A stretch of 64,000 nucleotides of DNA from Leptasterias polaris (lineage: Eukaryota; Echinodermata; Asteroidea; Forcipulatida; Asteriidae): the NCBI GenBank assembly GCA_037783415.1, contig JAZGTN010000037.1, forward strand, positions 2,480,001 to 2,544,000, read 5' to 3'. Both the position numbers and the translations under genes were made by a program. The stretch's first letter is position 1, and the number at the start of each line of letters is the position of its first letter. The notes beneath the pieces were generated by a model. That model was given only the letters and a program-made list of their open reading frames with translations, searched no databases and was not told the DNA's origin. This document shows, one piece after another, positions 1,737 through 50,955 of this stretch.

Positions 1737-3830
1737 TCACAGAGTGGTATTATCCATCCGGGCCTCATTGATGAGTCTTTTATCTTCCTCTGTCAATTTG
1801 CACATTCTCAATTCCACGCGCTTAATGTGTTTTAATCTCTTTGAATGAGTAGCCCACAATGATGCAGAACCACCCAAAGTTTCATTCTCAGACAGATACA
1901 GATAAACTAGGTTTGGCATGTCAACCAGTGACTCACAAATAGGGGCCATGTCTTTCTATCAGCATGCATCTTCTCAATAACAGACTCTTGAGCGGTTTTA
2001 ATTTCTTCAAAAGAGTAGCCCACAATGATGCACAACCACCCAAGGGGTAAATAACAGACAGATCCAGATAAAATAGGTTTTGCATGTCACTCAGTGACTC
2101 ACAAATAGGGGCCATGTATTCCCATGTCAGCATGAAGTTTTGCAATGTCAGCTCATTGAGATGTTTTAATCTCGCCGTAGGACGGGGCCGCAATGGTGCA
2201 CAACCACCCAAGGTTTTATTCCAAGACAGATCCAGATCAGAAATATTAGTCATTTTAGTACGACAATCTGCTAAATCACCACCAAACCTCTTACAATGTG
2301 TAATTGAAAAATGATTTACACAGCAAAGGTAAGCAATATTCTTCAGTAAGTAAAAAAAGGAATTTATACAATCACAATTCCACGCGATCATTTCTATGTT
2401 TGTACTCACAACTGCATTGATGAAATTCTCTGGTGGTAAACTCTTGGACTGACTCTCAAAGTAACAAATAAGACCCAACCTTGGATTCCACTTATTCTGA
2501 ATTGCCTGTAAGACTTGATGTGTACATCCCTCATTGTCACCACAACAAAACCTCAACAGATACTCATATGGAGAAGGATACGCTCTTGCTGCACAACAAA
2601 CCCGAACAAGGGTGCTATTAAATTCAGCTGTGTTTATAACACTCTTCCAATACATTGCAGCACAGAATTCCAAGAACGTTTTGTGTATAAAATACACATT
2701 GTTATGAATGTCTAATCCCTTGAAGACCCTCTCGCTTGTGAGAACACCTGCACTTAGTGCTGCATCGAATGCTTTCTTGTCAAAATCAAAATCTTTTTCT
2801 GTAAAGGAAAGAGACTGTTTGGTAGAAATCAGACCATATAGAGCAACCTTTCCAATTGAAATCAATATTTGTGATATTGCATCTTGTGACAAGTCTTTTG
2901 CTTTTCGTCTGAATATGTATCTCAATGCCTCAGTGTATAGTCGAGTCATTGTTTCTGGGAGTTTTCCAGACACTCTCCAGAGCAAGCACATCAAAAGCAA
3001 CAACATTGGACTCTTTGCCAAATCAGACAAGACTTCTGAAGATCCTATCTCCTCTATCAGCTTACTTACTTTGTCGTGGTCTTCAGGGAAAAATTTAGCT
3101 ATATACTCCTCAATATCAGAACCTGAAAACCCCTCAATTTTCACATGAGTGAAAGGCTTTTCAACCAATGATGAGTTGATAAGTTTGTTAAGGGGAGGAC
3201 GAGATGTAATAACTACCCAACATTCTGTGCACCTCTTTCGATTAAGAGCCTTGAGAATTGAACCAAATGAGGAATTTTTTAGCGTAGTGGTTTGAAATTC
3301 ATCAAATCCATCCAAGAGAATCAACACCTTTTCTTGGTTCTTGTCAATAAACCTTTTTAAATCAAACTTATTTACAGTGTCTTGGTCTAAGAGCTGCTCA
3401 AAGACAGCATCAATAAGGTCTGAAGTTTCTGTCAGTGCACGCATTTTCAAAACAAAAACAAGTTCAAACCTTTTGAGTATCTCACTCTTACCTGTTGCCC
3501 AATCATAAGCAATTTTGTCAATAAGGGTCGTCTTTCCAAGACCTGCCGATCCACCAATAACAATACGCTTGATTGAATTGCCCTCTCTTGTTTTAAATTG
3601 GAAAATATTTTCATAAGATTCAATTTTTTCTCTCTCTATTGCAATCTTCCCTACCTTGTCAACAAGTTCAACTAAAACAAGCTTAGTGTAGATGTCCATT
3701 ATGTGTAACTTATCATGATCAATCCATGGGATCATCTGTACAAAGCTACCTGTAGTCTTGTACACTTGCTTCAATGCCTCTTTAGCTTCATCAGCAACAG
3801 CTTGAGCTGGATGATTAGGGTCCGGTGTTC
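1737..3830 (-). pseudogene. NACHT-LRR exon of NLR copy 1 (frameshifted)
   Basis: This is the large 3' exon of the copy-1 NLR gene. It begins after a CCCATTAG acceptor and shows a P-loop GSAGLGKTT (about 3526-3552), Walker B ILLDGFDEF and helical NACHT-associated sequence, then ribonuclease-inhibitor-type leucine-rich repeats with the GEDMAPICES signature. Such proteins are cytosolic nucleotide-binding immune receptors. The ORF ends early near 1950: where copy 2 and other repeats read GTCTTCCCCTATCAG on the plus strand, this copy reads GTCTTTCTATCAG, a 2-nt loss. The last LRR and the normal C-terminus continue in another frame to a stop at 1737. One LRR near 2190 is also irregular and several repeats are missing relative to copy 2. 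Upstream exons are listed at 6699, 7774, 15227, 17135 and 17842. The damage suggests a pseudogene or a truncated receptor. Confidence 0.85.
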
Positions 3831-3959
3831 CTAATGGGCGATAGGAGAAGGAAAACAAATCACAACATATCAACAAGTTTTTTTTATAATGTAGATTGGT
3901 GATTATCTGACATTTCATGAGAAGCCTTTTCAATTTTTTTAATAATATAGTTCAATAGA

Positions 3960-6698: not shown

Positions 6699-6839
6699 CT
6701 GGTGGTAGATTTACATTTACATGAGTGATGGTTGTTCCAGAAGAAGGACCTGTAATGACAACATTACGATCCCCTTTCACTGCTGCCTGTGGTTGTTGAT
6801 GACATAACGTAGGCACATTTAATGATTGTGAACTCATGG
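6699..6839 (-). CDS. Short conserved NLR exon (copy 1), altered acceptor
   Basis: Counterpart of the copy-2 exon at 33807-33980. It encodes a segment with AVKGDRNVVITG and GTTITHVNVN, a pattern seen in linkers ahead of NACHT domains in invertebrate NLRs, and it ends at a CCACCAG|GTGTG donor in phase 1. The copy-2 acceptor (TTTTACTAG) has been removed by a small deletion. A new ACTAG directly before CCATGAG could serve instead and would keep frame, shortening the exon by 33 nt. Confidence 0.6.
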
Positions 6840-7773
6840 CTAGTTTGGTGAAATGCAGGAACAATAAAAGAGAAGGGTGAAAAGCAAAATACGTTTTTTT
6901 AACATTTAGATACACGTTTCAAAACTTGATGATCACACCAAAGTAATTTTTTGATTAATTGTACCACGTCCACATTGCATCTCATCTGTTTCAATAAGAA
7001 AATAAACGAGTAGACAAAAAGGTCTCAGGTTTGTGTGCCACAAAGGGCTGAGCCGAAGGCGAGGTTCTTTATTCAACAGCCACAACCCTGCAAGGTTTTA
7101 AACAGCTATTTAAGACTGAGTCACTACTGTTTTATTCCCATTCATAAATGGCCATTTTGTTGAAAGCGTAATACTGTTTCTGTAAAACCTTTCTGTAAAT
7201 TTTCAGTTCCTGTCACAACCTATCATGGCTCCTCTTCAAAAAGGGTCAAATTGCATGCGACATTGAATGGTTGGGCGTATGAGCGCGTAACAGCTTTTAC
7301 ATTGAGTACCAGTATTAATTGCCGACGCTACGTGTAAATAGTGCTCCTTATTTATCATGTTTATATCACACATTTGAACATGACCATGTGATCTCTTCTC
7401 GACCAATCAGATGTGGTTCAACTGAGGTATTTACACACATTCAAACATCAGCAATCAAGTACAATCAAACCTACTGTGTTGGAGTAGTCCAACAATTATG
7501 TAACATGGTTAACTCCACATGGAGGAAAATGCTAATTTTGAACAACTTCTTCCTGGTATTTTACCTTAAAAAGATTTTTATGAACTTGAAAACATTTATT
7601 TTTAGCAGAAAATGTAGGCAAAAAGTAATTGTGATGGTTTTACATTTCAAACTTGAGTAAGGGAGAGTGCACCGTAATGTTTGTAGTACAACGTATTGAA
7701 GTACATGAATTTTGAGGTAGTAAGTTTATGATGATAACTAATAACACATTTATAAGTGCTCATTGATCTGTAC

Positions 7774-8252
7774 CTTTACTGCTACAGTTTGAAGCTAGCT
7801 CATTGATGTTTCCTGCTGCAGAAGACGCACTCTGATGAGGTTTGGGTTCCTCCAGCAAATGAACCGAGGCACTCTGATGAGGTTTTGATTTTTCTTGAGA
7901 TTGAAGCTTCATTTGTTTTTGTGTTCCTCTTGGGTTCTTAGGAATGGCCCCTGTGCCTTTAAGAGTTCTCTGGGATTGAACTAAGCGATCCTGTTTCTCA
8001 GAAGAGGCACTCTGTTCAGTTACAAGTTTTCCTTGCACTTGAAGCTTCATTTGTTCTTTCGTTTCTCTTGGGTTCTTAGGAATGGCCCCTGTGCCAGGAG
8101 GAGTTCTCTGAACCTGGACTGCACTAGTTGAAGTACCCGGGAAGTCAGCAACAGTAGAAGAAGTCTCCATTGTCTCACTGAGATCCTTTTCCTTCGACTC
8201 TGAGGAACTCTCCCGCTCATCTTGTGTCTTGTTTTGTTTTTTGTTTTCCCTC
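7774..8252 (-). pseudogene. Linker exon of NLR copy 1 (out of frame)
   Basis: Encodes a Ser/Glu/Gln-rich, probably disordered linker. It contains an internal duplication: TGAIPKNPRETKEQMKLQ and TGAIPKNPRGTQKQMKLQ. Copy 2 carries this module once. Both borders match copy 2 (TTTACAG acceptor, AAAG|GTACAG donor). The length is 479 nt against 345 nt in copy 2; 479 leaves remainder 2 where the phase requires remainder 0, so splicing from the UBL exon at 15227 enters the wrong frame and meets a stop. Moving the acceptor to the next AG does not repair it. This is one of the lesions that make copy 1 look dead. Confidence 0.65.
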
Positions 8253-12815: not shown

Positions 12816-12954
12816 AGATTAGATTTTTCTTTTTTTGTGGCGCTAATAGGCTTTCGTAGATTTGCAGTTACTTAAACAAAACTAATGAAACATAAAATTA
12901 TGAACACGTCGTCCTTGGGCTTAATAAAAGTTCGGCAGAATAAACCATCTGTCC

Positions 12955-15226: not shown

Positions 15227-15332
15227 TAGATTTCCGCTTTCTTCCACCGCCCATCAACCCAGCAACTTGACGTATCTCTAGATTGGTGTCTTGCTGAATG
15301 CCAAGGACCATCAGGGACTGTGTGTCACAAAG
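15227..15332 (-). CDS. UBL domain, second half (NLR copy 1)
   Basis: A 106-nt exon with a TTTAACACAG acceptor and a CTA|GTAAGT donor. It encodes LCDTQSLMVLGIQQDTNLE then QVAGLMGGG and a basic RKRKS tail. This matches the last third of the ubiquitin fold (the LSDYNIQKESTLHLV..LRGG region of ubiquitin), including a Gly-Gly. It joins in frame to the exon at 17135-17303 and is the same length as its copy-2 counterpart. Confidence 0.75.
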
Positions 15333-17134: not shown

Positions 17135-17303
17135 CTCAATGCCCTTCCTAGTGACAAGATGCTGATTCTTTGCTTGGATATTTAGTTGTCCCTGGAGTAA
17201 TTCTTTCAAATCAGAGATGGTGGTGGATGGATGAAGTTGCAAACAGAGAGTCTCCTTTACTGGATTAGAAACAAATATCTGGATATGACGCTCTTCACTC
17301 TCT
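17135..17303 (-). CDS. UBL domain, first half (NLR copy 1)
   Basis: A 169-nt exon with a GGTTTCAG acceptor and a GAG|GTATGA donor. It encodes EERHIQIFVSNPVKE followed by a THxxISDLKELL-type helix and QNIQAKNQHLVT-like text. It is collinear with ubiquitin's MQIFVKT strand, alpha-1 helix and QRLIFAGK strand. It enters in phase 2 from the exon at 17842 and leaves in phase 0 into 15332-15227. Copy 2 has the same exon with a few substitutions. Confidence 0.75.
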
Positions 17304-17841: not shown

Positions 17842-18101
17842 CTGCCACTAGATGCTGCCACAGCTTGACCAATTTCAGACTGCTTCTTGGTGTCTGCTGT
17901 TTCAGATCTTCCTGAAGGTGTTTCAGATCTTCCTGGATTATTGGACTTTGTTACAAACGAGGATCTGAATGCCATTTTCTTTGAATTTCTGATGTTTTTC
18001 TTGTTGGTCACCGCCTTGACTGATGAGTGATTGTAGTTGGTTCTTGCTGCATGCAAAGCATCCTGGAAGTCAGCCAGGGTTTGCAAAGGCCTCAGAGATT
18101 C
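17842..18101 (-). CDS. N-terminal Ser-rich exon (NLR copy 1)
   Basis: A 260-nt exon, open throughout, with a CTTAG acceptor (so at least one more exon lies upstream, not found) and a GGCAG|GTAAAG donor. It encodes LADFQDALHAARTNYNHSS, a basic stretch, then a duplicated GRSET. No domain recognised; the first part may be helical. It is nearly identical to copy 2. Confidence 0.65.
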
Positions 18102-19439: not shown

Positions 19440-20640
19440 TAGTGCGATCCACTATGACTATCGTCTCAACTCAAGGAGGAGACGATAGAACCCTTAATTA
19501 GCGGATCGAACCTCATTAGGCTTTATTAGTCATATAGTTCTACAAGTAGGAGTAGGTCAAAATACCCTCACCTTTCTTTCCTCTGTGCCCATTTAAGAAT
19601 ATGATTTTGTTTCTTTGTTTAGTTAGTACACTATTTAGCAAACTTACCATCTCTGTAGCCCTGGTGTAGAACGCAAGTCTCCGTGGTAGCCCTGCAAGTG
19701 CTACACACACAGTCACTACCTCAGTGTTTTAGCGGTAGTATAGCGCTAAATAAAAGTGCAGTTGGCGCTGCTGTGATGCTATGTAGTTGTACTACTACAT
19801 ATTATACGTACGATGGATACACTGTCTGAATATACTGAGGAGCCCAACCCGGGATACATCTCTCTCTCTAAAGATGAATGCATTTGCGGTGGACATTTGG
19901 ATACAGAGTGAGAAAAATATCTGCCGTATGCCGTTTACAAGGCACGGGCAACAGAAAAGCTGGCCACTGACACCTCAAACTCAAGTCAAAGTTCAATATT
20001 ATCGCAATCTACCATAAAAATAAGGGAATTCCCCCTTTTGTTAACAGGCCAACGCACATGACGTCAATGTGGAGGTGCGCCCTCAAGTAGAAGCACGGCG
20101 GCAGATTGCTAATTCACAAATCTGAAATGCCAGTGGGGTGATCATACCATTATCAGTACACCTGCCTCTCAATTGGCCTTGCTTTCGCTCCAAGTTTATT
20201 CACAAAATTAATTAAACCTATTTACTCAGCTCTCGAAAGCCAAGGGTTTCAATCAGTTGCATAAATTGATGATTCCTTATTTTTGGGGAAAACTTAACGA
20301 GGTGTTATAATAATATAGTTGCGGCAAAACAAATTATGGCCCAACCTAGACCCAGTAACTGGGGCGCTGTACTCATTTTTTGAAATTGTGTCTCTTTATC
20401 GCTAGTACGAAAGATAAAAGACAAAATTTCAAAAAATGAGTACAGCGCCCCAGTTACTGGGTCTAGGCCCAACCATCATTATAATTCACGACACAAAGTT
20501 GGTTTCTATTCCAGTACAGGAAAAATACCTGCCATTGGCTTTGTGTTTAATTTGAATGATATATCATTTTCCCCAACATCACAGAAAGCTAAAAACCTAA
20601 AAGAAAAACGTCACTTGATTTAAAAAAGAATCTGTGCCAG
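19440..20640. other. Upstream flank of NLR copy 1
   Basis: Aligns with 38400-40375. It holds the disrupted version of the plus-strand reading frame seen intact at 38807-39042: here an inserted TGACA-type change moves the frame and a stop follows. A hairpin with arms around CTATCGTCTC/GAGACGATAG (19455-19495) also occurs at 38413-38447 with different spacing. Confidence 0.5.
20346..20466. mobile_element. Hairpin MITE, 121 bp
   Basis: Almost the whole element is one dyad: the left arm begins CTAGACCCAGTAACTGGGG and the right arm is its near-perfect reverse complement (about 40-bp arms). It is flanked by GCCCAAC on both sides (20339-20345, 20467-20473), giving a 7- or 8-bp target duplication. 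Copy 2 lacks it. Confidence 0.85.
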
Positions 20641-23837: not shown

Positions 23838-24812
23838 TAAAGAGTCTTAAAGTGGCTGCTTTTATCAGTGTATACTACAGAGGAGTTGATAACCAAAGAG
23901 TCTTAAAGTGGCTGCTTTTATCAGTGTTTACTACAGAGGAGTTGATAACCAAAGAGTCTTAAAGTGGCTGCTTTAATCAGTGTATACTACAGAGGAGTTG
24001 ATAACCAAAGAGTCTTAAAGTGGCTGCTTTTATCAATTGTATACAACAGAGGAGCTGATAACCAAAGAGTCTTAAAGTGGCTGCTTTTATCAATTGCATA
24101 CAACAAAGGAGTTGATAACCAAAGAGTCTTAAAGTGGCTGCTTTTATCAGTGTATACTACAGAGGAATTGACAACCAAAGAGTCTTTCAGTGGCTGCTTT
24201 TATCAGTATATACTACAGAGGAGTTGATAACCAAAGAGTCTTAAAGTGGCTGCTTTTATCAATTGTGGCTGTTTTTATCAGTATATACTACAGAGGAGTT
24301 GATAACCAAAGAGTCTTAAAGTGGCTGCTTTAATCAGTGTATACTACAGAGGAGTTGAAAATCATCTTTTTAGGTGACATGGTTACCATCATTAAATAAA
24401 GCTTTTATTATTATTATTATTATTATTATATAACCACAGAGTCTTAAAGAGGCTGCTTTTATCAGTGCATACTACAGAGGAGTTGATAACCAAAGAGTTT
24501 TAAAGTGGCTGCTTTTATCAGTGTATACTACAGAGGAGTTGATAACCAAAGAGTCTTAAAGTGGCTGCTTTTATCAGTGTTTACTACAGAGGAGTTGATA
24601 ACCAAAGAGTCTTAAAGAGGCTGCTTTTATCAGTGCATACTACAGAGGAGTTGATAACCAAAGAGTTTTAAAGTGGCTGCTTTTATCAGTGTATACTACA
24701 GAGGAGTTGATAACCAAAGAGTCATAAAGTGGCTGCTTTAATCAGTGTTCAGTGTTTTTACTACAGAGGAGTTGATAACCAAAGAGTCCTTAAGGGACTG
24801 TTTTTATCAGCA
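23838..24812. repeat. Second 56-bp minisatellite array
   Basis: About 16 copies of the same unit as at 1-1516, more diverged. The array is interrupted near 24360-24440 by unrelated sequence and a (TTA)n microsatellite. A two-unit block (GAGGCTGC..GCATAC..GAGTTTTAAAG) is itself repeated at 24440 and 24615. Confidence 0.9.
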
Positions 24813-26095: not shown

Positions 26096-26818
26096 TTATT
26101 TTTGGATTTTCATCCAATTAAATTTCAGAGTTTTAATCATCGCTTGAGGTCTTTTTCGACTGCCCACCTCTGCATGTACAGTTAGAGTGGTATTATCCAT
26201 CCGGGCCTCATTGATGAGTCTTTTATCTTCCTCTGTCAATTTGCACATTCTCAAATCCACGCTCTTAATGTGTTTTAATCTCTTAAAATGAGTAGCCCAC
26301 AATGATGCAGAACCACCCAATGTTTCATTATCAGACAGATCCAGATAAACTAGGTTTGGCATGTCACTCAGTGACTCACAAATAGGGGCCATGTCTTCCC
26401 CTATCAGCTTGAAGAAACTCACTGTCAGACTCTCGAGCTGTTTCAATCTCTTCAAATGAGTAGCCCACAATGATGCAGAACCACCCAAAGTTTCATTCCA
26501 AGACACATCCAGATAAACTAGGTTTGACATGTCACTCAGTGACTCACAAATAGGGACCATGTCTTCCCCTATCAGACCGCAGTTGCTCAATGTCAGACCC
26601 TCGAGCTGTTTCAATCTCTTCAAATGAGTAGCCCACAATGATGCAGAGCCACTCAAGGTGTCATTCCCAGACAGATCCAGATAAACTAGGTTTGGCATGT
26701 CACTCAGTGACTCACAAATAGGGGCCATGTCTTCCCCTATCCGCATGAATGAAAATGTCAGATTCTTGAGTTGTTTTAATCTCTTCAAATGAGTTGCCCA
26801 CAATGATGCACCATCCAA
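26096..26818 (-). pseudogene. Detached LRR block of an NLR gene
   Basis: An open stretch with about four repeats of the NLR LRR module (GEDMAPICES, NLVYLDLS, SASLWATHLKRLKQL) and a C-terminal end like that of copy 1 (KLTEEDKRLINEAR). It lacks NACHT and starts abruptly inside a repeat. It lies downstream of the complete NLR of copy 2, so it is either a duplicated 3' end or an alternative LRR exon. Confidence 0.7.
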
Positions 26819-26947
26819 GGTTTTAATCCAGAACAGATAATCCCAGACTGATTCTTTTATTAAGTTGGAAAGTTATTATTTTATATTTCAACGGTGACAT
26901 CCACACACAGCCATTACTGCAAATCAAATAAACACTGAAAAACTTAC

Positions 26948-27382: not shown

Positions 27383-29694
27383 TTATTGGATATCTACAAA
27401 TAGAGTGGTAATATCCATCCGCGCCTCCTTGATGAGTCTTATATCTTCCTCTGTAAAAGCGCACACTTTCAAATCCAGTATCTTGAGCTGTTTTAATCTC
27501 TTCAAATGAGTAGCCCACAATGATGCAGAGCCCCTCAAGGACACATTATCAGACAGACTCAGATAAACTAGGTTTGGCATGTCACTCAGTAACTCACAAA
27601 TAGGGGCCATGTCTTCCCCTATCAGCTTGCAGAAACCCAATGTCAGACTCTCGAGCTGTTTCAATCTCTTCAAATGAGTAGCCCACAATGATGCAGAGCC
27701 ACTCAAGGTGTTATTCCCAAACAGATCCAGAAAACCTAGGTTTGGCATGTCACTCAGTGACTCACAAATAGGGGCCATGTCTTCCCCTACCAGCATGCAG
27801 CTGCTCAATATCAGACTCTTGAGCTGTTTTAATCTCTTCAAATGAGTAGCCCACAATAATGCAGAGCCACTCAAGGTGTCATTCGCAGACAGATCCAGAT
27901 AAACTAAGTTTGACATGTCACTCAGTGACTCACAAATAGGGGCCATGTCTTCCCCTATCAGCTTGCAGAAACACAATGTCAGATTCTTGAGTTGTTTTAA
28001 TCTCTTCAAATGAGTAGCCCACAATAATGCAGAGCCACTCAAGGTGTCATTCCAAGACAGATCCAGATTAGAAATATTAGTCATTTTAGTAAGACAATCT
28101 GCTAAATCACCACCAAACCTCTGCATGTCACAACTTTTAATGGAAAGATGATTTACACAGGAAAGGTAGGTCCTATCCTTGGTCTTTTCCTGATCCGCAA
28201 TAATATTCTTCAGTAAGTAAAAAAAGGAGTTCAAACAATCACAATTCCAGTTGGCTATTATTATTTCTGTGCTCACAACTGCATTGATGAAAATCTCTGG
28301 TGGTAAACTCTTGGACTGACTCTCAAAGTAACAAATAAGACCCAACCTTGGATCCTGATTATTCTGAATTGCCCGTAAGACTTGATTTGTACATCCCTCA
28401 TTGTCACCACAACAAAACCTCAACAGATACTCATATGGAGAAGGATACTGTCTTGTTGCACAACAAACCTGAACAAGGGTGCTATTAAATTCAGCTGTGT
28501 TTATAACACTTTGCCAAAACATTGCAGCACAGAATTCCAAGAACGTTTTGTGTATAAAATACACATTGTTATGAATGTCTAACCCCTTGAAGATCCCCTC
28601 GCTAGTGAGAACACCTGCACTTAGTGCTGCATCGAATGCTTCCATGTCAAAATCAAAATCTTTTTCTGTAAAGGAAAGAGACTGATTGGTAGAAATCAGA
28701 CCATGTAGAGCAACCTTTCCAATTGAAATCAATATTTGTGATATTGCATCTCGTGACAAGTCTTTTGCTTTTCGTCTGAATATGTATCTCAATGCCTTAG
28801 TGTATAGTCGAGTCATTGTGTCTGGGAGTTTTCCAGACCCTCTCCAGAGCAAGCACATCAAAAGCAGCAACATTGGACTCTTTGCCAAATCAGACAAGAC
28901 TTCTGAAGATCGTATCTCCTCTATCAGCTTACTTACTTTGTCGGGGTCTTCAGGGAAAAATTTAGCTATATACTCCTCAATATCAGAATCTGAAAACCCC
29001 TCAATTTCCACATTAGTGAAAGGCTTTTCAACCAATGATGAGCTGACTAGTTTGTCAAGGGAAGGACGAGATGTAATAACTACCCACCATTCTTTGCCCT
29101 GCTTTCGATTAAGAGCCATCAGAATTGATCCAAATGAGGACTTGTTTCGCGTAGTGGTTTGAAATTCATCAAATCCATCCAAGAGAATCAAAACTTTGTC
29201 TTGGTTCTTGTCAATAAACCTTGTTAAATCAGACCTATTTACAGTTTTGTCTAAGAGCTGCTCAAAGATAGCATCAATAAGGTCTGAAGTTTCTGTCAGT
29301 GCACGCATTTTTAAAACAAAAACTAGTTCAAACCTTTTGAGTATCTCACTCTTACCAGTTGCCCAATCATAAGCAATTTTGTCAATAAGGGTCGTCTTTC
29401 CAAGACCTGCCGATCCACTAATAACAATACGTTTGATTGATCTGCCCTCTCTTGTTTTTAAATGGAATACATCTTCATATGATTCCATTTGTTTTTTCTC
29501 TTTCACAATTTTTCCTCTCACGTCAACTTGTTCAGCTAAAACAAGCTTAGTGTAGATGTCCATTATGTGTATCTGATCATCATCAACCCATGGGAGCATC
29601 TGAACATAGCTACCTGTGTTCTCGTACCTTTCCTTCAATGCCTCTTTAGCTTCATCTGCAACAGTTTGAGCTGGATGATTAGGGTCCGGTGTTC
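27383..29694 (-). CDS. NACHT-LRR exon of UBL-NLR gene (copy 2, intact)
   Basis: This is the terminal visible exon of the intact NLR gene: 769 codons plus stop, entered in phase 1 through a CCCATTAG acceptor (G+GA = Gly, then TPDPNHPAQ). Order: a helical lead-in; P-loop GSAGLGKTT (about 29390-29416); Walker B ILLDGFDEF (about 29165-29195); NACHT helical and winged-helix regions with LSDLAKSPMLLLLMCLLW and YFIHKTFLEFCAA; then about five double LRR modules of ~56 residues with GEDMAPICES and SASLWATHLKRLKQLK. It is presumably a cytosolic sensor that oligomerises through NACHT on ligand perception. The LRR modules are strikingly alike at the DNA level, suggesting recent duplication or conversion. 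Upstream exons 33807, 34894, 35692, 36959 and 37680 join it without frame conflict. Confidence 0.9.
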
Positions 29695-30274
29695 CTAATG
29701 GGCGATAGGAGAAGGAAAACAAATCAGCACGTATCAACAATGTAGATTGGTGATTTTCTGATATTTCATTAGTTTTAATTTCAAGTTTTAATAATATAGT
29801 TCAATAGACCCTTCCAATGAAATATGTAAATTGCACATCACAGGAGTGCACTAACACTTTGGTTGGCAAAATGATGGAACATCGTGCCTTTTTGTTTGGG
29901 GCTGATGGTGGCGTGACGCAGACGCATTTGAGCGTCTGCTTAGTGCACCTCTCTGGCGTTTGCCAACCTATAGTGTCTGTACGCATGGGTGAATGTAATT
30001 AGCATATTTCATGGGAAGGGTCTATTAATTGGTACTTTATTTGTTTGTGTCTTGCCCTCGATGCATGATGTATCACCAATCAGTTATCATACATGAAATT
30101 ATAACTACATTTTGTATGTAAGTCATAAGTTTAGTATGTAGTAACAAAAAAGTGAAAATTCAAACTTAACAGACAACAAACATAACTTTCTTTGTTTCTT
30201 TTCAAATCAGTGATTTCTGGTAAGGTTGACATGTTGGCAAGTGTATTATTTGGATTCATAGCCAATGTGACACC

Positions 30275-30425
30275 TAGTGTGGCATTCAGTGTGGCAGCCA
30301 CTGATGTAGCATCCAGTGTAGCAGCCTGCAGAGTTGCAGCAAGTGTGGCAGCCAGTGTGGGCAGCCTACAGAGTGGCAGCAAGTATGGAAGCCTGTGTGG
30401 CAGCCTGTGTGGCAGCCAGTGTGAA
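30275..30425. repeat. Diverged GTGTGGCAGCC-type repeats
   Basis: Copy-2 counterpart of the 12-bp minisatellite at 4479. The words GTGTGGCAGCC recur irregularly with insertions, i.e. the non-homogenised state. Confidence 0.7.
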
Positions 30426-30999
30426 ACCATGTTCAGTGTGATCTCTGGTGGCAGAATATTGCATTCAAATTGCCATCCTGTGTGAACAAGAACCCCCTTC
30501 CCGTATGCATGCAAAGCTCATCCTGAACAAAGTGATTTCACTGCTCAGAATAAATACTATATCACACCCTGCCATCAAGGAAAACCTGAATGTAACATTC
30601 CAGCACCATTTCACCTGGAGCCACATATCTTAAAATGACAATTTATTGATTAATACAGAGGGGCCTATACCACAATACTTGCATTTTGCATTTTTACAAA
30701 GAGCCACACCCCCCCCCCCCAAATACATGTCATACGTTGCAAGAGAACAGTGTAAATGTAGGGAAAATCTTTGTTCTTGTTTCACAAAGAGCCACTAAAG
30801 CCAGTGTGCACGTGATCACATGACAGAAGCGCCCCTTTCCTAATGTAAACACACATTTTTCACTTGAGGGTATATTAGACATATTTCTAATAAATATGGT
30901 AATAGCCAATATAATTTAAAGAAATTAAAGTTACTCCATTGAGAAGTCAAACTTAGAGATTTAGAACAATAAGGTTTCCCCTCTGTCTCTCCTTCCCCT

Positions 31000-31085
31000 T
31001 AAGGTTTTGGTTTCAGTCTTGGTCACGGGAGATGAGGTCTCGGTGTCAGTCCAGGTCTGGGACTTCAAGGTCTTGACTACAATAC
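31000..31085. mobile_element. Decayed CAGTGTTGT-family element
   Basis: Runs of GTCTTGG, GGTCTCGGTGTCAG, CCAGGTCTGGGACTTC and a TTGACTACAATACTG end recall the MITE at 22036, but no left end or target duplication remains. Confidence 0.45.
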
Positions 31086-31464
31086 TGTCACATCTTAAGT
31101 TTTTGAATGGTGTTTTGCCAAAATCTGTGGTTGTTTGTAATTGTGATGGAAGTTTGGGTGAAAGTCTTGCAGCAGCTGAAGTTCAAAGATTACATTAAAA
31201 AATACTGTTCAAAATTTGTTTTCTGTTGTTCAACCTTTTACAGTAATGTAAAAGGCCTACTTTTAGATGCTATTAATCATAAAATGGTAATCTTTCAAGC
31301 CATGAGGTTAGTTGGTTTAAGGTTTCACGTTTGTACTTGTAATGAGTTGTGTAACAACTGTTACACTCTGAACGACATTTTGACTTTAGGTAAAATGAGG
31401 TTCCCCAACTGACAAGTATGACGTTGGTTTGAGTGAACTTCATGTTTTGTTTCGATACATGCAT

Positions 31465-31508
31465 TTCAATACAAAAACAAGTTCAAACCTTCTTAGTATC
31501 TCACTATC
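31465..31508 (-). pseudogene. Fragment of a NACHT exon
   Basis: AAAAACAAGTTCAAACC followed by AGTATCTCACT closely matches the segment of the NACHT exon just after the P-loop (compare 29318-29352). It is cut by the GACTCG-rich insert that follows. Probably part of the same fossil exon as 33030-33236. Confidence 0.55.
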
Positions 31509-31855
31509 GTTGACTCGTGATTTGGACAATCCGGTCAGACTAATTTTTATGACTCAGACTTGACTTGGTGAATGACTCAGACTCACACATCTTGACTCAG
31601 ACTTTGGACTCAGACTCGATATTTGTGACTCAGTGTGACTCGATGTTTGTGACTTGATGTTTGAGACTCGTTATTTGTGACTCAATATTTGTGGCTCGTT
31701 ATTCGTGACTCGATGTTTGTGACTCGATGCTTGTGACTCGATGCTTGTGACTCGATAATTGTAACTCGATATTTGTGACTCATTATTGTGACTTGATGTT
31801 TGTGACTCAATGTTTGTGACTTGATGTTTGTGACACGTTAATTGTCACTCAGGAC
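31509..31855. repeat. Degenerate GTGACTCGATGTTT array
   Basis: About twenty copies of a 14-18 nt word (TTTGTGACTCGATG and variants). It belongs in style to the GACTTG/GACTCG cores of the CAGTGTTGT elements; clear ends are not visible. Confidence 0.65.
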
Positions 31856-32104
31856 TTTCCAACCTGCCTCCTACTCTATATAGTACATCATAAGTTTTGG
31901 GACTTAAAAAAACACATTTTGTTGTTGTGTATATAATGCGGTTTTTGAAAGGGGTTTTTATTTCAAGAACAAAACATTCGATCTCAATTTACACAGTTAC
32001 TTAAACGATTTTTGTTTTAATGGGAATGCTATTCAAACTTGTTTATGTGTTTGTTTATCATTTAAATGTATTTTTTATGTTTTAACTCTTCTGTTTTTTT
32101 CGTA

Positions 32105-32251
32105 GTAATCGCTAAAAAAACAAGGCCCCAACCTCAAGGTTTTGAAAAACTAAAAAAACGTCTACCATTGATGGTGCGCGACTGTGGTCTGAGTCCATCA
32201 GTTTATGTGTGGGAGTTAGATTTGCGTGAACAAATCAAACACCGGGATTGA
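32105..32251 (+). other. Possible plus-strand exon, unknown product
   Basis: After a TTTTTTTCGTAG acceptor-like site there is an open, codon-like stretch (VIAKKTRPQPQGFEKLKKR, then VYVWELDLREQIKH) ending in TGA at 32251. The aligned copy-1 region (about 4690-4760) keeps only part of it. No family recognised. Confidence 0.3.
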
Positions 32252-33029
32252 TAGTTTTCAAAAGAAATTTGTTAAATAAATTGCTTTTACAAAGTTTCTT
32301 GGGTGCTGGAATAATACGCCATCATTCTCTGGCATTGGTGGATTTTCGGCGACTAAATCGAAATCCGCAGAGGCACAGTTCCCTTGATTTTGTATGCGGG
32401 TGGGGGGGGGGGGGGGGGGGAGTGGTCGTTTTGACCGTTGACAACACTTGATAATAACAATTTGCAGCACTCATTTCACAGATGACTAGGAATGATTTGT
32501 CCCAGCCAAGCTTGCTGCAATAATTTGGGTATCAGTGTGTCATTTGCCCACCTGTCCATCTGTTTCAGGGCAGGTACAACTCAGCTGTCTATCCTGTAAA
32601 AATTAACTGTATTCACTAAAGCCTGTTTTTGTTATTTTATAGTTTACTTGAAGCCAAACTTTTACTTGAATGAAAGTCCTTTTTGATAATACTGTCGACA
32701 GTAAAGCCCAAGACAGCGACCAGTGTGTTTCTGGCATCTCTTGCTTGTTGGATATGCTTCGAAAAGTATACCACTTATTCATTTGTTTATATAATTTTGT
32801 TTATCAATACAAATTTATTGAAAAGGTCTTTCCACTGATATGCGTTACTATTTGTTATGAATGCATTACACTTCATACTGTTTATCCTGTGAATATTCCA
32901 GTATTAGATGCAAAGAAAATGGGAGCTTACTACATCTGTATTACTATTTATTAGCCAGTCGATCTTGGTTTCGCTCTCGTTAACATCAGCTTCATTGTCG
33001 GGTGCTAATGTTTCCACATGCAAGTGGCT

Positions 33030-33236
33030 CTAATTTAGTGTAATTCTCGTTAATACATTCACTGCGTTTTCAACATGTTCAAGTAAAACAAGCTTATCAT
33101 AATAGATGTCCATTTTGTAAGTCTTGAGATAATCTAAATTATTAGCTACCTGTAGTCATGTCTGTTTGCTTCAATGCATCTGCAATAGCTTGAGCTTGAG
33201 CTTGAGGATTGGGGTGGGGCGTTCCTGTTAAGAGGT
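33030..33236 (-). pseudogene. Fossil 5' part of a NACHT exon (copy 2)
   Basis: Same relic as at 5870-6117, with the same order of recognisable NACHT-exon words. Not translatable. Confidence 0.65.
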
Positions 33237-33806
33237 AATAAACAAGAGTCAGCACACACACAAAATGTCTTCAACTTATTCCTTAACTGCATAAAACATA
33301 ATATTTCATTTCTTAACCTCAAAGTGGCTATGCTTTTCTGTAAAGTAAAAGTTTCTATACATCCGCACGAGTTGCTTGAATTTTTCCTGAGTTTTCAGTT
33401 AATTGGATAATACAAAATAAATTATATATTTGTTATTAATTGTTTTTTGTTTGTATTTCTTTTTATTTAAAATGTATAACAAAAATGGGGAGGGGAATGG
33501 GTGCTTGTTTTCTTAAATTTAAATGAGGGTCATTTTGGCAAATATGTAAAACTACCTCAACTATCATATTATGTTGCTGAATTGTGTCATGCCAAGACAC
33601 TATGAAAGTTTGCACCTGTTAGGGGAGTTTGGGTGAGAGCCCCTGCAATTGGCTAAGGCTGTTTTTTCCGAGATTATTTGAAATTATTCAACATTTGTTT
33701 CTGTTCTTCAGCCTCAAGTCAAGTAATTTATTACATGGTCAATTAGGGCAAACTAGTTGCTTGAATGTTTTACTTTTGTACTAATAAGTAATATTGTATA
33801 ACACAC

Positions 33807-33980
33807 CTGGTGGTAGAATTACATTTACATGAGTGATGGTTGTTCCAGAAGAAGGACCTGTAATGACAACATTACGATCCCCTTTCACTGCTGCCTGTGA
33901 TTGAAGATGACATGATAATGTCTGCACATCTGATGACTGTGAACTCATGGCTTGGTTTTGGTGAATTGCAGGAACAATAT
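33807..33980 (-). CDS. Short conserved exon of UBL-NLR (copy 2)
   Basis: A 174-nt exon with a CTTTTACTAG acceptor and a CCACCAG|GTGTG donor, entering in phase 1 (G+AT = Asp) and leaving in phase 1. It encodes AIHQNQAMSSQSSDVQ.. then AVKGDRNVVITGPSSGTTI and HVNV, a glycine/beta-strand-rich piece of a type often found between effector and NACHT regions. Frame is continuous with both neighbours. Confidence 0.75.
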
Positions 33981-34893
33981 CTAGTAAAAGAAAAGGAAAA
34001 AAGCAAAATACGTTTTAAAACATTTAGATACACGTTTCAAAACTTGATGATTACACCAAAGTAATTTTCTGATTAATTGTACCTCGTCCACATTGCATCT
34101 CATCTGTTTCAATAAGAAAATAAAAGAATAGACAACAGTTGGTCTTAGGTTTCTGTGCCACAAGGGACCAAGCCGAAGGCAAGGTTCTTTATGGCACAGC
34201 CACAACCCTGCAAGGTTTTAAACGGCCATTTAAGACTGAGTCACTACTGTTTTATTCCCATTCATAAATGGCCATTTTGTTGAAAGCGTAATACTGTTTC
34301 TGTAATACCTTTCTGTAAATGTTCAGTTCCTGTCACAACCTATCATGGCTCCTCTTCAAAAAGGGTCAAATTGCATGCGACATTGAATGGTTGGGCGTAT
34401 GAGCGCGTAACAGCTTTTACATTGAGTACCAGTATTAATTGCCGACGCTACGTGTAAATAGTGCTCCTTATTTATCATGTTTATATCACACATTTGAACA
34501 TGACCATGTGATCTCTTCTCGACCAATCAGATGTGGTTCAACTGAGGTATTTACACACATTCAAACATCAGCAATCAAGTACAATCAAACCTACTGTGTT
34601 GGAGTAGTCCAACAATTATGTAACATGGTTAACTCCACATGGAGGAAAATGCTAATTTTGAACAACTTTTTCCTGGTATTTTACCTTAAATAGATTTTCA
34701 TGAACTTGAAAACATATATTTTTAGCAGAAAATGTTGGCAAAAAGTAATTGTGATGGTTTTACATTTCAAACTTGAGTAAGGTAGAGTGCACCGTAATGT
34801 TTGTAGTACAACGTATTGAAGTACATGAATTATGAGGTAGTAAGTTTATGATGATAACTAATAACACATTTATAAGTGCTCATTGATCTGTAC

Positions 34894-35238
34894 CTTTACT
34901 GCTACAGTTTGAAGTTATCTCATTGATGTTTCCTGCTGCAGAAGACGCACTCTGATGAGGTTTGGGTTCCTCCAGCAAATGAACCGAGGCACTCTGATGA
35001 GGTTTTGATTTTTCTTGAGATTGAAGCTTCATTTGTTTTTTCGTTCCTCTTGGGTTCTTAGGAATGGCCCCTGTGCCAGGAGGAGTTCTCTGAACCTGGA
35101 CAGCACAAGTTGAAGTACCCGGGATGTCATCAACAGTAGAAGAAGTCCCCATCGACTCACTGAGATCCTTTTCCTTCGACTCTGAGGAACTCTCTCGCTC
35201 ATCTTGTGTCTTGACTTTTGTTGTTAATATTCCCTGCT
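34894..35238 (-). CDS. Linker exon of UBL-NLR (copy 2)
   Basis: A 345-nt exon with a TTTACAG acceptor and an AAAG|GTACAG donor. It enters in phase 1 from the UBL exon and stays open. It is rich in Ser, Glu, Gln, Lys and Pro (DERESSSESKEKDLSES, TGAIPKNPRGTKKQMKLQ, two PHQSAS motifs), so it is probably a flexible linker between UBL and NACHT. Confidence 0.75.
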
Positions 35239-35691
35239 CTGTAAATCAAGAAGAATATTTTCCCACCATGTTAGTGTAATGAAAGCAGGATAGCTTAAGG
35301 ACACGTTTTATATTTTCTGTACTTCTTTACACATAACTAACTACTTAAACAGTATGGTATTAAAATGTTAAAGCAGTAGATGAATGATGCTTGGCTTGCT
35401 GGGCTGCCAAATCCTGGGTGAAACATTGCAGTAAAACCAACTTCCCTCACAATGAATTACTATTTAACTTATGACTATTTCTGCTTCCTTGTACCACACG
35501 TCCATTGGATGAACCTCAAGCTTTCTATTTCATTACCTCTTTGGTTACCTTTATTAGCAATCCGACTTTCCATAACTTGGGTTTATTGAACCACCTGTCA
35601 ATCCAATGACTTGGCATAAATCTGAATTGCTGAGTTCCAAGAATCTTAAGGGACAGAACAATATAAATGTTTCGAGAGAGCTCACACTTAC

Positions 35692-35797
35692 CAGATTTCC
35701 GCTTTCTTCCACCGCCCATCAACCCAGCAACTTGACGTATCTCTAGGTTGGTGTCTTGCTGAATGCCAAGGACCATCAGGGACTGTGTGTCACAAAG
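35692..35797 (-). CDS. UBL domain, second half (copy 2)
   Basis: A 106-nt exon with a GGTTAACACAG acceptor and a CTG|GTAAGT donor. It encodes LCDTQSLMVLGIQQDTNLE then QVAGLMGGG and RKRKS. By comparison with ubiquitin it supplies the beta-5 strand and a C-terminus with glycines at the place of ubiquitin's Gly75-Gly76, but the protein continues rather than ending there. Confidence 0.8.
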
Positions 35798-36958
35798 CTG
35801 TGTTAACCGAAAAAGTATTCCCAATAAATTTCAGAGTGATACATAGTGTGGCACCCCACTTTTGTTTGATTAGGAATTCTGTGGTACAGTCAATTTTCTT
35901 TAAAAAGCACCTCTAAAGATGCATGTACAAAATTGTCTATGGGTATAGGTAGTAGATGTGTAGTATTCAACATAAATTTGTTGTGTGCATATATCATTTG
36001 TTGGGATCTAACAATTGAGGGATGTATTTGATGGTGCAGTCATAATAAATTACACTGCTGCAGGAGGTTTTGCTCAGTATTGATTGTATCTCAAAACTTA
36101 TGCGGGTAAACGATATCAAACTTTTGGTTCAACAATCAGTGACAATACATGGTCTCAATAGCAGTCAGACATTACTGAACTTGAAGTTATGGTAAAAAAA
36201 TAAAACAAAATTCCCATAAGAAAACGTATGAAATCAAGAGTCATCAAAAACTTATTTCTTCATGTTAACTCTTTCAGTGTCCATTATTTTTTACGTTTTG
36301 AACCTAAAAATCACAGCTTTTTGAGCTTTTTCGAAATTCTGTATTTAAAAAAAAGTATTTGTCACCAAACAAAATCTTGCTGATTTGTGTTTCCTTTACA
36401 TCCCAAAAAGTCAATAGTATTTCTTGAGTGCCACTGCCCTTTCATGATAACACATACATTATGGGTCATGTTTGATTGATAATACTTTTTGAGTACAGTG
36501 AAATAGATCATACGTGTACGAACTTGGAACTGACAGAGTTAAGTTCAACGAGTTTTTTTATTTGAAATAATTGAATTTGAATTTAATATTACACATTGCA
36601 TATTTACAAAATGGGGCGAGAACAAGAACTCATGGAAATTGCTACAAAGGATTTTTAGAAAGTGTTATCCATTTTTTGGAAACAAAAAAAAAAATCTTAA
36701 AGTTTGTTCAGCTGTTAATTTTGTAATTCCTGATTTTATGCGTGCTAGCAACAATACAAAACAAAAATTCATATAATGACACGTGAAGTATCTTGCCTGC
36801 AAGGAAATGCCAAAGAATGCATACTATGGGTCACTTATTTTGTAAACAAGATGGACAAGGAGTTCTAACATCTGTGGTAAAACTTCCCAAAAGAGATGTC
36901 CAATCAAATTCAAAGCAAAATGAGTTAATTGTCTGCACCAAATGACACAAATTCATAC

Positions 36959-37127
36959 CTCAATGCCCTTCTTAGTGACAATATGCTGATTCTTTGCTTG
37001 GATGTTTAGTTTTCTCTGGAGTAATTCTTTCAAGTCAGAGATGGTGGTGGATGGATGAAGTTGCAAACAGAGAATCTCCTTTACTGGATTAGAAACAAAT
37101 ATCTGGATATGACGCTCTTCACTCTCT
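36959..37127 (-). CDS. UBL domain, first half (copy 2)
   Basis: A 169-nt exon encoding ESEERHIQIFVSNPVKE, LCLQLHPSTTISDLKELL and NIQAKNQHIVTKKGIE. The IQIFV start, a Thr/Ser-capped alpha-1 helix (TTISDLKELL, like TIENVKAKI in ubiquitin) and a QHIVTKKG strand-turn (like QRLIFAGK) support a beta-grasp fold. Phase 2 in, phase 0 out; frame continuous with 37680-37939 and 35692-35797. Confidence 0.8.
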
Positions 37128-37679
37128 CTGAAACCAAAAGAAAAAACCCCACACATTTTGATTCAATAGAACATTCCATTATTAAGTCCCAGCCATCAAA
37201 GTATAAGCCAAGCAAAAGCACAATGGTAACAACATGATTCGTATGCTCATCTCTGCTGTAATGACCGACTCAAGAGAGTGGCCATGCATGTATTTCGGGG
37301 TCTGTTGGGCTTTGTTTGACAATTGGGAGTTTTAAAAAGTAAACAAAACAACAATTCCTGATGAAGTAATTTAATCCAATAGTATAAAGTTAGAAAAGAA
37401 GTGTAAACTTATTTCAGACATGAATTGTACGCCAGGGAAGTAATTCTAGTCAGAGGCACAAAAGAAGTCCTGCATATGACACCAATATATAAAGAAGTAG
37501 TGAACAAAAATAAAATAAGTAAATACAAACAAAATCAAGAGATGCTATACAATATTAGCTTTAAAATGCTGGAACAATTTATGCTCACAAATCTGACCTT
37601 AAAATTGTTGACCCAAGTCCCATGACCCCAAATCTGCCCTTGTGTTACTGCTTCATTATTGTGAGATGCTGAACTTTAC

Positions 37680-37939
37680 CTGCCACTAGATGCTGCCACA
37701 GCTTGACCAATTTCAGACTGCTTCTTGGTGTCTGCTGTTTCAGATCTTCCTGAAGGTGTTTCAGATCTTCCTGGATTATTGGACTTTGTTACAAACGAGG
37801 ATCTGAATGCCATTTTCTTTGAATTTCTGATGTTTTTCTTGTTGGTCACCGCCTTGGCCGATGAGTGATTGTAGTTGGTTCTTGCTGCATGCAAAGCATC
37901 CTGGAAGTCAGCCAGGGTTTGCAAAGGCCTCAGAGATTC
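37680..37939 (-). CDS. N-terminal Ser-rich exon of UBL-NLR (copy 2)
   Basis: A 260-nt open exon preceded by a GATGATTAG acceptor, so the true first exon lies further upstream (above 37939) and was not identified. It encodes ESLRPLQTLADFQDALHAA.., basic KNIRNSKK, and a repeated GRSET. It leaves in phase 2 and completes an Arg codon with the UBL exon. No known domain. Confidence 0.65.
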
Positions 37940-38447: not shown

Positions 38448-38806
38448 ATCGAACCTCATAATAGTTCTACTAGGAGTAGGTCAAAATACCCTCAGATCAC
38501 CTTTCTTTCCTCTGAGTCCATTTAAGAAAATGATTTGGTTTCTTTGTTTAGTTAGTTAGCATTCTCAAACTTACCATCTCTGTATTAGCCCTGGTGTAGG
38601 ACGCCAGTCTCCGTGGTACTGAAATTACAAGTGCCCTGCAAGTGCTACACACACAGTCACTAACTCAGTGTTTTAGCGGTATATAAAGAGTCGACAAGAC
38701 TATATATAGCGCTAATAAAGTGCTGTTGGCACTGTAAATTGTAGTAGTTGTACTAGCCTGACTATACTGAGGAGCCCAACCCGGGATACATCTCTCTCCT
38801 CTAAAG

Positions 38807-43481: not shown

Positions 43482-43596
43482 TTTGAGTTTGATTTCCTTG
43501 GTGATTTAAGAGCAATTGTACTTTGTAATTTTGGTGTAAAAGGTTTATTTCTGTGAAACGTGAGTTTGAGGTTACTGGGGAAGAGTAACCCTCAGT

Positions 43597-48813: not shown

Positions 48814-50955
48814 CTATCGGTTTTTCCATTTTGAGAACATTCTGCTGTAATTGTGCTCCTTGTGAATCTTTGGCCCATCATAGTTATACGATGAGTTAGT
48901 GTCCTGTGACTTTGGATTTAGTTGGCCAGGTTGATACAATTTTTTTTTAGCATAGTAAGTGTGATATCGTTCAGCTCGACACTGTGCTCGTCGCTTTTTG
49001 TAGATCTTTCCCATAACACGTTTTTTGTGATATTGTTGTTTTTTGTCCATTGCATCGAGGGCTTTTGCAGCGGGTGATCCAGCAGTAATGGGGCAATGAG
49101 TTGCCTCACACTTTTTGATAATAGAGTTTGCATGTTGGTTGTTCACCAGATGGATGGCGCTGTGATCTCTTGAAGCTCCGTTCCTTGAAAAGGTTAGTGT
49201 TCCTTTTGGATTTGTCATGGCGTAGGCATGATTCATGGATTCAGACTTCTGGGAACTTGTTCTGTACTTGGTTCTCTCTATCGCTTCGTCTCCTATGCGT
49301 TTTTCCAAAATTGTTTTTAAGATTTCCTCATCTTTAGATGTTAAAATAAATCTGCCGCGGACATAGCGAGAGAGGTATGGGTACTTGTATTTACCGTTGC
49401 AAACATGAGAATTTTGTTTGCATTTCTCATGGTCTCCCATGTAGCAGTTCGGAATTGCATCAATCGCCTTTGCAGCCAGTCTTTTCATGCTTGCTGTGTC
49501 ATTTCCGCATTTAATGGAAATATGGTGTGCCTCAGCCTGTGCTCTGTGACTCACGTCATCAGCAAATCGGTCCTGTACTCTGTTTCGGTCTCTTGCACTG
49601 TTCCCAGGGAACATGTCACTGCTAAAGTTTGCTCGGCTGACTGCCGCACAAAGCGAGCGGTTCAAGTGGGATGGGTCCAGCAGACTTTCCATTTCCTTTC
49701 CCGTTCTTCTTCTCATGATAGAATTCATTCCTTTTGCTAGACAGCCGTCAGCGTCTGTTGTTATTCTATCCACAAGAACTGGTTCCGTGCACTCCAAAAG
49801 TTTAGTCGCACATCGAACACCCCCTTCTCTCTCATCTCCCATATTGAAATGCGCTGGACGAGTAGCTGTGCACTTGTCGCCGTGCTTAGCGGATGTGCAT
49901 TGTTGACCGAATGATGATGGTGACATTTCACCACTTTTACAAAGCTTGTTTTCTTGATGGTACATTATAACAAACTTTGAAGTAGTTGCGTTCTCGCACA
50001 CGGTGTCTCTTGTCTGTGTTGCAGGAACAAATTTTTTTTTTTTCCTACAGTTGCGCAGGGGATTATTATACTGCCTGTCCATTTCAACTGCAATTGGACT
50101 TTCTCGTTCAAAGCCTTGGAGCTCACGGATGTCTTTCACTAGTTTCCTCTTGTCTGCCATGTCTCTGATATTTTCATTTTTGATAATTTCACCACATTTG
50201 TTCGAAATTTTTTGCAGCCCACTAGTGCATGGTACAGCTGTGTCCATTGATGTCAAGAGCCTCCTCGCACCTGCGGTTGCAATGCCAGTGTTCTGCAGGC
50301 CAACTTGGAAAGACATGTTTGGGGTTGCAGTGCGTCGTCCCCGCTTCCTACCCTCGTTAGCTATCTCACTGTAAAGTTTTGTCTTTTGTGTTTTAAAACC
50401 ACACTTTTTGCAGGACATTACCTCTGAGACGGCTAAACCTCTACGCTCTTCTGCCTCAGCCAATAGTTTAGGTTGACCATCACACTTAGGATGTGTTTGT
50501 TGATGATCAAGTACAGCTTGTGCACCCAGCTCTAGAGCTGAGTTGATGTCTACAAAACGATAACCTCCTCCTTGGTGATCAGTTCCTCTCTTGGGCAGTG
50601 GCTGGCCACATTTGTTGGCTATTGGGATCACTCCCTTGAGCTGGATCTTGTCAACTGGAGCCATTTCTACAACTTTTGGGCGAAGGAGCATCACATTTCT
50701 GCGGTTGTCTTGTTCCATCTGTGCTGCAATGTGGCAGAAATCTCCTCGCTCCGTATTTGGGGCGGCTAAACTCAACTGCTGATGGGTTGGCCTGACATAC
50801 CGTGGTGTAGGTATACTTTGAGTTTCACTGCCTTTGTCTTGTAGTGAATTAAATTTATTTTTCGGCTTGAACCAAGTTTTTTGCATCTTGAAAATGCCGC
50901 GTCTAGCTCTACCCATTTTTATGGCAATGGATTTGTTACAAACATTGAATGGCAT
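48814..50955 (-). CDS. Mutator-like (MULE) transposase, intact ORF
   Basis: A 713-residue uninterrupted ORF. The first ~180 residues are basic and low in hydrophobics. A CKKCGF zinc-type motif (about 182) follows, then MSFQVGLQNTGIATAGARRL and the helical lead-in IRDMADKRKLVKDIRELQGF. Candidate catalytic acids are AVEMDRQYNN (Asp ~293), RITTDADGCLAKG (Asp ~401/403) and possibly the Glu in QKSESMNHAY. Other marks are a CGN..CxxN.H.C cluster and the late TNPKGTLTFSRNGASRDHSA block. I recognise this as the Mutator-type transposase domain common in marine invertebrate genomes (PF20700-like, recalled, not searched). The long intact single exon suggests recent or ongoing activity. Terminal repeats were not found. 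Confidence 0.75.
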   Translation of the reverse strand: MPFNVCNKSIAIKMGRARRGIFKMQKTWFKPKNKFNSLQDKGSETQSIPTPRYVRPTHQQLSLAAPNTERGDFCHIAAQMEQDNRRNVMLLRPKVVEMAPVDKIQLKGVIPIANKCGQPLPKRGTDHQGGGYRFVDINSALELGAQAVLDHQQTHPKCDGQPKLLAEAEERRGLAVSEVMSCKKCGFKTQKTKLYSEIANEGRKRGRRTATPNMSFQVGLQNTGIATAGARRLLTSMDTAVPCTSGLQKISNKCGEIIKNENIRDMADKRKLVKDIRELQGFERESPIAVEMDRQYNNPLRNCRKKKKFVPATQTRDTVCENATTSKFVIMYHQENKLCKSGEMSPSSFGQQCTSAKHGDKCTATRPAHFNMGDEREGGVRCATKLLECTEPVLVDRITTDADGCLAKGMNSIMRRRTGKEMESLLDPSHLNRSLCAAVSRANFSSDMFPGNSARDRNRVQDRFADDVSHRAQAEAHHISIKCGNDTASMKRLAAKAIDAIPNCYMGDHEKCKQNSHVCNGKYKYPYLSRYVRGRFILTSKDEEILKTILEKRIGDEAIERTKYRTSSQKSESMNHAYAMTNPKGTLTFSRNGASRDHSAIHLVNNQHANSIIKKCEATHCPITAGSPAAKALDAMDKKQQYHKKRVMGKIYKKRRAQCRAERYHTYYAKKKLYQPGQLNPKSQDTNSSYNYDGPKIHKEHNYSRMFSKWKNR

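Follow-up and report, generated by a model that had tools for sequence, protein, structure and literature searches.

A ubiquitin-like domain as the predicted N-terminal module of sea-star NLR receptors

Animal NLRs are classified by their N-terminal signalling domain, which is usually of the death fold. In a stretch of 64,000 nucleotides from the sea star Leptasterias polaris (assembly GCA_037783415.1, contig JAZGTN010000037.1, positions 2,480,001 to 2,544,000; hereafter the window), one minus-strand gene, copy A, appears to carry a ubiquitin-like domain (UBL) at that place, followed by a linker, a NACHT domain and leucine-rich repeats (LRRs). This raises the question of whether the UBL and the NACHT domain belong to one receptor, and what the UBL might do there. 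Judged from the sequence, our analysis supports copy A as a gene for an NLR-type receptor with a UBL front end, a linker, NACHT and LRRs. We further consider it probable that the locus belongs to a tandem array of sea-star NLR genes and is one of its units, with an N-terminal UBL module in place of the death-fold domain and a cluster of UBLs as the signal.

An earlier note, made from the letters of the window, had joined six minus-strand exons with compatible phases. AG and GT borders were found at all the coordinates it gave, and the exon lengths (260, 169, 106, 345, 174 and 2312 nt) give the claimed phases. Exon 1 (37680..37939) encodes a basic N-terminal motif (YNHSSAK...NSKKMAF, motif profile E-value = 2.5e-23) and a spacer. 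The UBL is split between exon 2 (36959..37127; borders, Pfam, UBL profile), which holds its initial two thirds, and exon 3 (35692..35797; borders, profile, UBL alignment), which holds the final third and the tail GLMGGGRKRKS. Exon 4 (34894..35238) encodes a low-complexity linker, exon 5 (33807..33980) the linker end with the motif VKGDRNVVITGPSSGTTITHVNV, and exon 7 (27383..29694) the NACHT domain (Walker A GSAGLGKTT, Walker B LILLDGFDE), LRRs and the stop codon. The six-exon join is a single open frame of 1121 aa plus stop, while the other two frames contain 85 and 89 stops; these stops, together with the recurrence across the genome described below, rule out a chance join of UBL and NACHT exons.

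The six exons of the earlier model stand, but the model was not complete, since it left out a start exon and an optional exon. Its exon 1 is preceded by AG and lacks a start codon. A start exon further upstream, of which the last codon is placed (38575..38577, minus strand, ATG directly before GTAAGT, with the 5' end beyond), joins in frame as M-ESLRPLQ and extends the protein to 1122 aa plus stop. The same ATG arrangement is mirrored at 19650-19648 in a second gene copy of the window (copy B), and the start MESLRPLQ resembles that of the annotated proteins P0003 (Asterias rubens) and P0107 (Asterias amurensis). The optional exon (33150..33224, minus strand, 75 nt), which is similar to the start of the NACHT exon, is in frame and would give 1147 aa; its counterpart is present in the sea-star proteins P0002, P0003 and P0004 and absent from P0001, P0005 and P0107. 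Both this exon and exon 5 are symmetric (phase 1-1), so skipping either preserves the frame.

The hidden Markov model search that the earlier note proposed was run on the joined protein, which matches ubiquitin-family and NACHT models of Pfam. The ubiquitin model PF00240 scores 30.0 bits when the UBL piece is searched by itself (E-value = 4.5e-7, cut-off 25.4) and 24.9 bits in the whole protein, slightly below the cut-off. The NACHT model PF05729 scores 103 bits (E-value = 2e-29, cut-off 26.7), and the Walker A and B motifs expected of an NLR are present. C-terminal LRRs are indicated by an LRR_4 match in two stretches (E-value = 1.4e-5, 25.6 bits, slightly below the cut-off of 27), by repeat units of 168 bp and by the LRR fold in the structural model of P0051, an Acanthaster relative. 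The 168-bp tandem units lie at 27481-28068 and 26271-26810 of the window, and a second open LRR stretch (26096-26872) lies beyond the stop codon of copy A. A Pfam scan with E-values up to 1 found no CARD, PYD, DED, DEATH or BIR domain in the copy A protein and no 2'-5' oligoadenylate synthetase core, and RHIM was not among its matches. The solved sequences nearest to the UBL are ubiquitins (24-32% identity to the ubiquitin chains in the structural list). The beta-grasp fold and the Gly-Gly at its end (GLMGGG) are as the earlier note had described them, except that the tail exceeds that of ubiquitin by about two residues. In the linker, the exon 5 motif that precedes the NACHT exon is of the type NVxGxxNPxFxGPxxGxTFxxNV. 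A profile built from seven segments matches 17 of 108 sea-star proteins, whether UBL-bearing or not (domain E-value up to 0.05; the seven segments are among the 17), and the motif is possibly a beta-type assembly motif; an amyloid-type role for it is speculative.

The best protein matches come from A. amurensis and A. rubens, followed by Acanthaster and Patiria. In related genomes, where the earlier note had proposed to look, four other sea-star species have predicted proteins in which UBL and NACHT occur together. Among 111 retrieved proteins, 22 carry the UBL (13 with NACHT, five named SAMD9-like and four with neither), and in these searches, which were of limited reach, no species besides A. 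amurensis, A. rubens, Acanthaster planci and Patiria miniata is represented among them. The order UBL, linker, NACHT and LRR is upheld by a single frame that stays open across the splice junctions, by the same order in these four species and by repeated loci of the L. polaris genome with a UBL followed by NACHT. Receptors of other kinds carry the module as well. When the N-terminal motif and the UBL were used as profiles, further loci of this genome matched, and those at C93, C202, C73, C46, C271, C24, C37:4.5 Mb and C50 resemble P0083 of A. amurensis, in which Pfam finds a UBL, three DEATH stretches, NACHT and LRR. Acanthaster P0070 and P0038 likewise combine UBL, DEATH and NACHT. The UBL at C162 is followed, on its own strand and at a distance of about 7 kb, by a SAMD9-like open reading frame (ORF) (1613-aa open frame, 55% identity, query Patiria P0092), and the module occurs on the sea-star SAMD9-like proteins P0092, P0104, P0105, P0106 and P0110. 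By sequence, the UBL module thus appears common to three receptor kinds, namely NLRs, DEATH-NLRs and SAMD9-like proteins. In a UBL tree, the DEATH-NLR group (support 100/98) and an Acanthaster NLR group (99/96) each fall on one side of a branch and are paired (96/98); the SAMD9 UBLs do not form one group. Good support is reached at 11 of the 34 inner branches, and ubiquitin sits on a long branch.

In searches with residues 1-185 of P0092 (12 matches with E-value up to 0.01 among 485 candidates) and with a consensus module (16 matches with E-value up to 1 among 1189 candidates), all matches were sea-star proteins; each search reaches relatives that share short exact words within a set length range, and free-standing small UBLs were not targeted. 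Recent acquisition of the UBL from ordinary polyubiquitin is unlikely, as the polyubiquitin locus at C134 matches the module with E-values of only 0.07-0.17, and the module keeps its own motif and tail across divergent families.

The pairing of UBL and NACHT recurs within the genome. On C37, the contig carrying the window, 18 UBL copies lie on the minus strand between 2.49 and 3.13 Mb, and 17 of these copies, which are not mutually independent and some of which are identical, have a same-strand NACHT within 30 kb downstream. Genome-wide, among the matches listed, this holds for 31 of 38 UBL places, and outside the array for 14 of 20, where about 0.2% would be expected at random sites. The 38 places were obtained from 83 rows by removing 15 polyubiquitin rows and 30 rows of second UBL exons at places already counted, and some of them are weak (C12, E-value = 0.15; C280, 0.07; C50, 0.06); the NACHT set consists of 98 matches from 100 of 128 candidates scored. 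Among the seven places without a same-strand NACHT are C17:2447124, which has one on the opposite strand, and C162 with its SAMD9-like ORF. AG and GT are intact at exon 1 in all 18 array copies and at exon 2 in 17; the copy that lost its exon 2 splice site is also the one lacking NACHT. The intron that splits the UBL sits at an identical site in all 12 loci read (GT and AG, phase 0), although either of two AGs would serve in four of them. The exon module upstream of NACHT genes therefore recurs beyond chance. Three pairs of C37 copies (2516953/2804143, 2636085/2740655 and 2679410/2784328) have similar scores, and within each pair exons 1 and 2 are identical; such copies may stem from recent segmental duplication or from assembly redundancy.

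Parts of the receptor differ in conservation. Compared with P0001, P0002, P0003 and P0107 of Asterias, copy A has 70 or 71 of 80 UBL residues identical, 84-88% identity in the N-terminal motif, 75-79% in the NACHT part, 63-66% in linker exon 4, 57-62% in the LRRs and 38-46% in linker exon 5, the least conserved part. That the front end has changed less than the LRRs is consistent with a common output joined to a varying sensor. Among 25 UBLs less than 85% alike, the positions of ubiquitin K27, Q41, L43 and L56 are invariant. At other positions, P stands in place of L8 in 16 of the 25, Y or F in place of I44 in 17, R for V70 in 12, F for K48 in 14 and Q for K63 in 14. Judging by this alignment, the UBL fold and tail are kept and the usual ubiquitin-receptor patch is not. 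With L8, I44 and V70 mostly replaced by P, Y or F, and R, recruitment via the ubiquitin Ile44 patch becomes less likely.

In known NLRs, CARD and PYD are brought together at an oligomeric hub. By analogy, ligand sensing by the LRRs would release NACHT for oligomerisation, and oligomerisation would gather several UBLs at the hub. The UBL cluster would then be the signal, recruiting a UBL-binding adaptor or an E3 complex, through a surface other than the Ile44 patch, to start a defence response. As a possible added step, a protease might free the UBL via the kept Gly-Gly tail, or the UBL might be conjugated.

Several observations weigh against a UBL-fronted receptor that signals in this way. The receptor is known here from DNA and gene predictions, and its oligomerisation and signalling are inferred. 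The proteins of the neighbouring species are themselves predictions: P0003 carries a low-quality label, and P0004 and P0005 are models that begin within the UBL or the linker. A UBL lies upstream in only 32 of 98 NACHT matches, and most NLRs of this genome, among the matches listed, lack a UBL. UBL exons 1 and 2 are damaged in four of the 18 array copies (two have a frameshifted exon 1, another has a stop codon in exon 2 and another has lost a splice site; the other 14 show no such damage). The ratio of nonsynonymous to synonymous substitution in the array is moderate (0.51 for exon 1, in a set that includes one frameshifted sequence, 0.43 for exon 2, and 0.15 for exon 3, from four sequences). 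The alternation of UBL and NACHT in C37 would also be expected from tandem duplication of two neighbouring genes. Finally, copy B, on the minus strand of the window from 19650 to 1933, looks degenerate. After its start codon before GTAAGT (19648..19650), exon 1 (17842..18101), exon 2 (17135..17303, UBL) and exon 3 (15227..15332, UBL and Gly-Gly tail) have intact borders and 99.2, 95.9 and 99.0% identity to copy A. The start of linker exon 4 (7774..8252), judged by eye, is four bases shorter than that of copy A, which would shift the frame if the acceptor of copy A is used. Exon 5 (6699..6867) lacks the AG found before exon 5 of copy A, and the NACHT exon (1933..3830, within an ORF at 1933-3951) is open until its stop and has fewer LRRs.

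The tail suggests another use of the UBL. Copy A could encode a receptor and a releasable modifier in one, cut after Gly-Gly so that the UBL is freed or conjugated like ubiquitin precursors, ISG15 and avian OASL; we regard this as possible, though rather unlikely. Although the tail sits outside the fold, Gly-Gly is aligned in 21 of the 25 divergent UBLs, the tail residues G, L, G and G make up four of the 13 invariant columns in an alignment of 18 proteins, and a small residue and basic residues often come after Gly-Gly. From sequence, the kept tail is compatible with cleavage after Gly-Gly. On the other hand, the longer tail reads GLMGG or GLLGG and not LRLRGG, and the four UBLs without Gly-Gly at the aligned place all come first in Acanthaster proteins that have two UBLs (in one of them Gly-Gly is a column off). 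Avian OASL sets a precedent, being an immune sensor whose UBLs carry Gly-Gly: its tandem UBLs end in LRLRGG, it is first made immature, and chicken OASL is reported to form conjugates (PMC8764230). The broader proposal that NLRs, DEATH-NLRs and SAMD9-like proteins share a self-encoded UBL that is freed or conjugated via Gly-Gly on activation, each receptor being sensor and modifier precursor at once, is doubtful.

The UBL might instead be a degradation or stability tag, controlling the receptor level by delivery to the proteasome or to ubiquitin shuttle proteins; we consider this improbable. The domain is ubiquitin-like in fold, and integral UBLs serve proteasome or shuttle binding in Rad23 and ubiquilin. 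Such binding usually uses the L8/I44/V70 patch, however, which is mostly replaced in the sea-star UBLs, and the high conservation over three receptor kinds suits a common signalling role at least equally. That a UBL gene and an NLR gene were duplicated as neighbours and never form one spliced mRNA is very improbable: strict alternation in a tandem array would appear identical, and NACHT is absent from the predicted UBL proteins P0072, P0089, P0090 and P0109, but six borders join in frame, the linker exons are coding with the exon 4 identity to Asterias given above, and single predicted proteins unite UBL and NACHT in four other species and on different receptor kinds.

The window contains further features. 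Both NLR copies have a 56-bp minisatellite on their downstream side (1-1514 and 23839-24810), with 39 matches to a 30-base piece at up to two mismatches where none are expected; it may participate in the tandem duplication. Arrays of 21-bp repeats of the GAATCCGTAATAACGGATTGC type occupy 11449-13229, in both orientations, within the large intron of copy B. A plus-strand ORF of 923 codons (43570-46341) encodes a zinc knuckle and an aspartyl protease of gag type and matches C2H2 weakly, with no reverse transcriptase match in this ORF, and a minus-strand ORF (48814-50958) encodes a Mutator-like transposase domain (E-value = 2.7e-44).

A UBL in the effector place, common to three receptor kinds and amplified in arrays, would imply direct wiring of the NLRs to ubiquitin-type signalling in one animal lineage, bypassing death-fold adaptors. 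This provides a testable setting for two questions: whether clustered UBLs are the output of an oligomeric receptor, and whether the Gly-Gly tail is processed. Sea stars suffer from a wasting disease of open cause, for which immune receptors are of interest.

The earlier note had called a UBL effector unfamiliar among animal NLRs; a literature search that excluded subscription papers and preprints found, in the text available, no report of a UBL-NLR or of a UBL as an NLR front end, although databases already contain predicted proteins with ubiquitin and NACHT Pfam domains. In the parts of the sources available, the nearest published cases are invertebrate conflict proteins in which TRADD-N is fused to polyubiquitin or to other domains (PMC8195603) and Ig-NACHT receptors in a sea cucumber (PMC13133943); a supplement counts 35 Pfam domains co-occurring with NACHT in cnidarians (PMC8260672). 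UBL-NACHT-LRR receptors are not named in the available text of PMC8195603. A point of likeness is P0110 (SAMD9-like, A. amurensis, with UBL), whose residues 321-368 give a weak TRADD-like N-terminal match (E-value = 1.4e-4, below the cut-off). Sea-star members of the SAMD9-like STAND proteins bear the same UBL module on a different core, without NACHT or LRR; by term counts in the available text, ubiquitin appears nowhere in the 2017 dissection of SAMD9 architecture (PMC5445408). OASL has a nucleotidyltransferase core with C-terminal UBLs, whereas the sea-star receptor has an N-terminal UBL on NACHT with a GLMGG-type tail. Like ubiquitin precursors and ISG15, the receptor has a ubiquitin fold, then Gly-Gly, then a basic extension (compare ubiquitin-eS31), but it differs in its low identity, in the loss of the Ile44 patch, K48 and K63, in lacking LRLRGG and in having a receptor as the extension. 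Like animal NLRs of the NOD2, NLRP3 and NLRC4 type, it has NACHT with Walker motifs, a winged-helix region and C-terminal LRRs, and the model of P0051 resembles NOD2, NLRC4 and NLRP3. Unlike them, it bears at its N-terminus a ubiquitin-like fold with a preceding basic motif in place of CARD, PYD, DED, DEATH or BIR, and unlike the receptor of the window, related sea-star forms carry a UBL plus DEATH.

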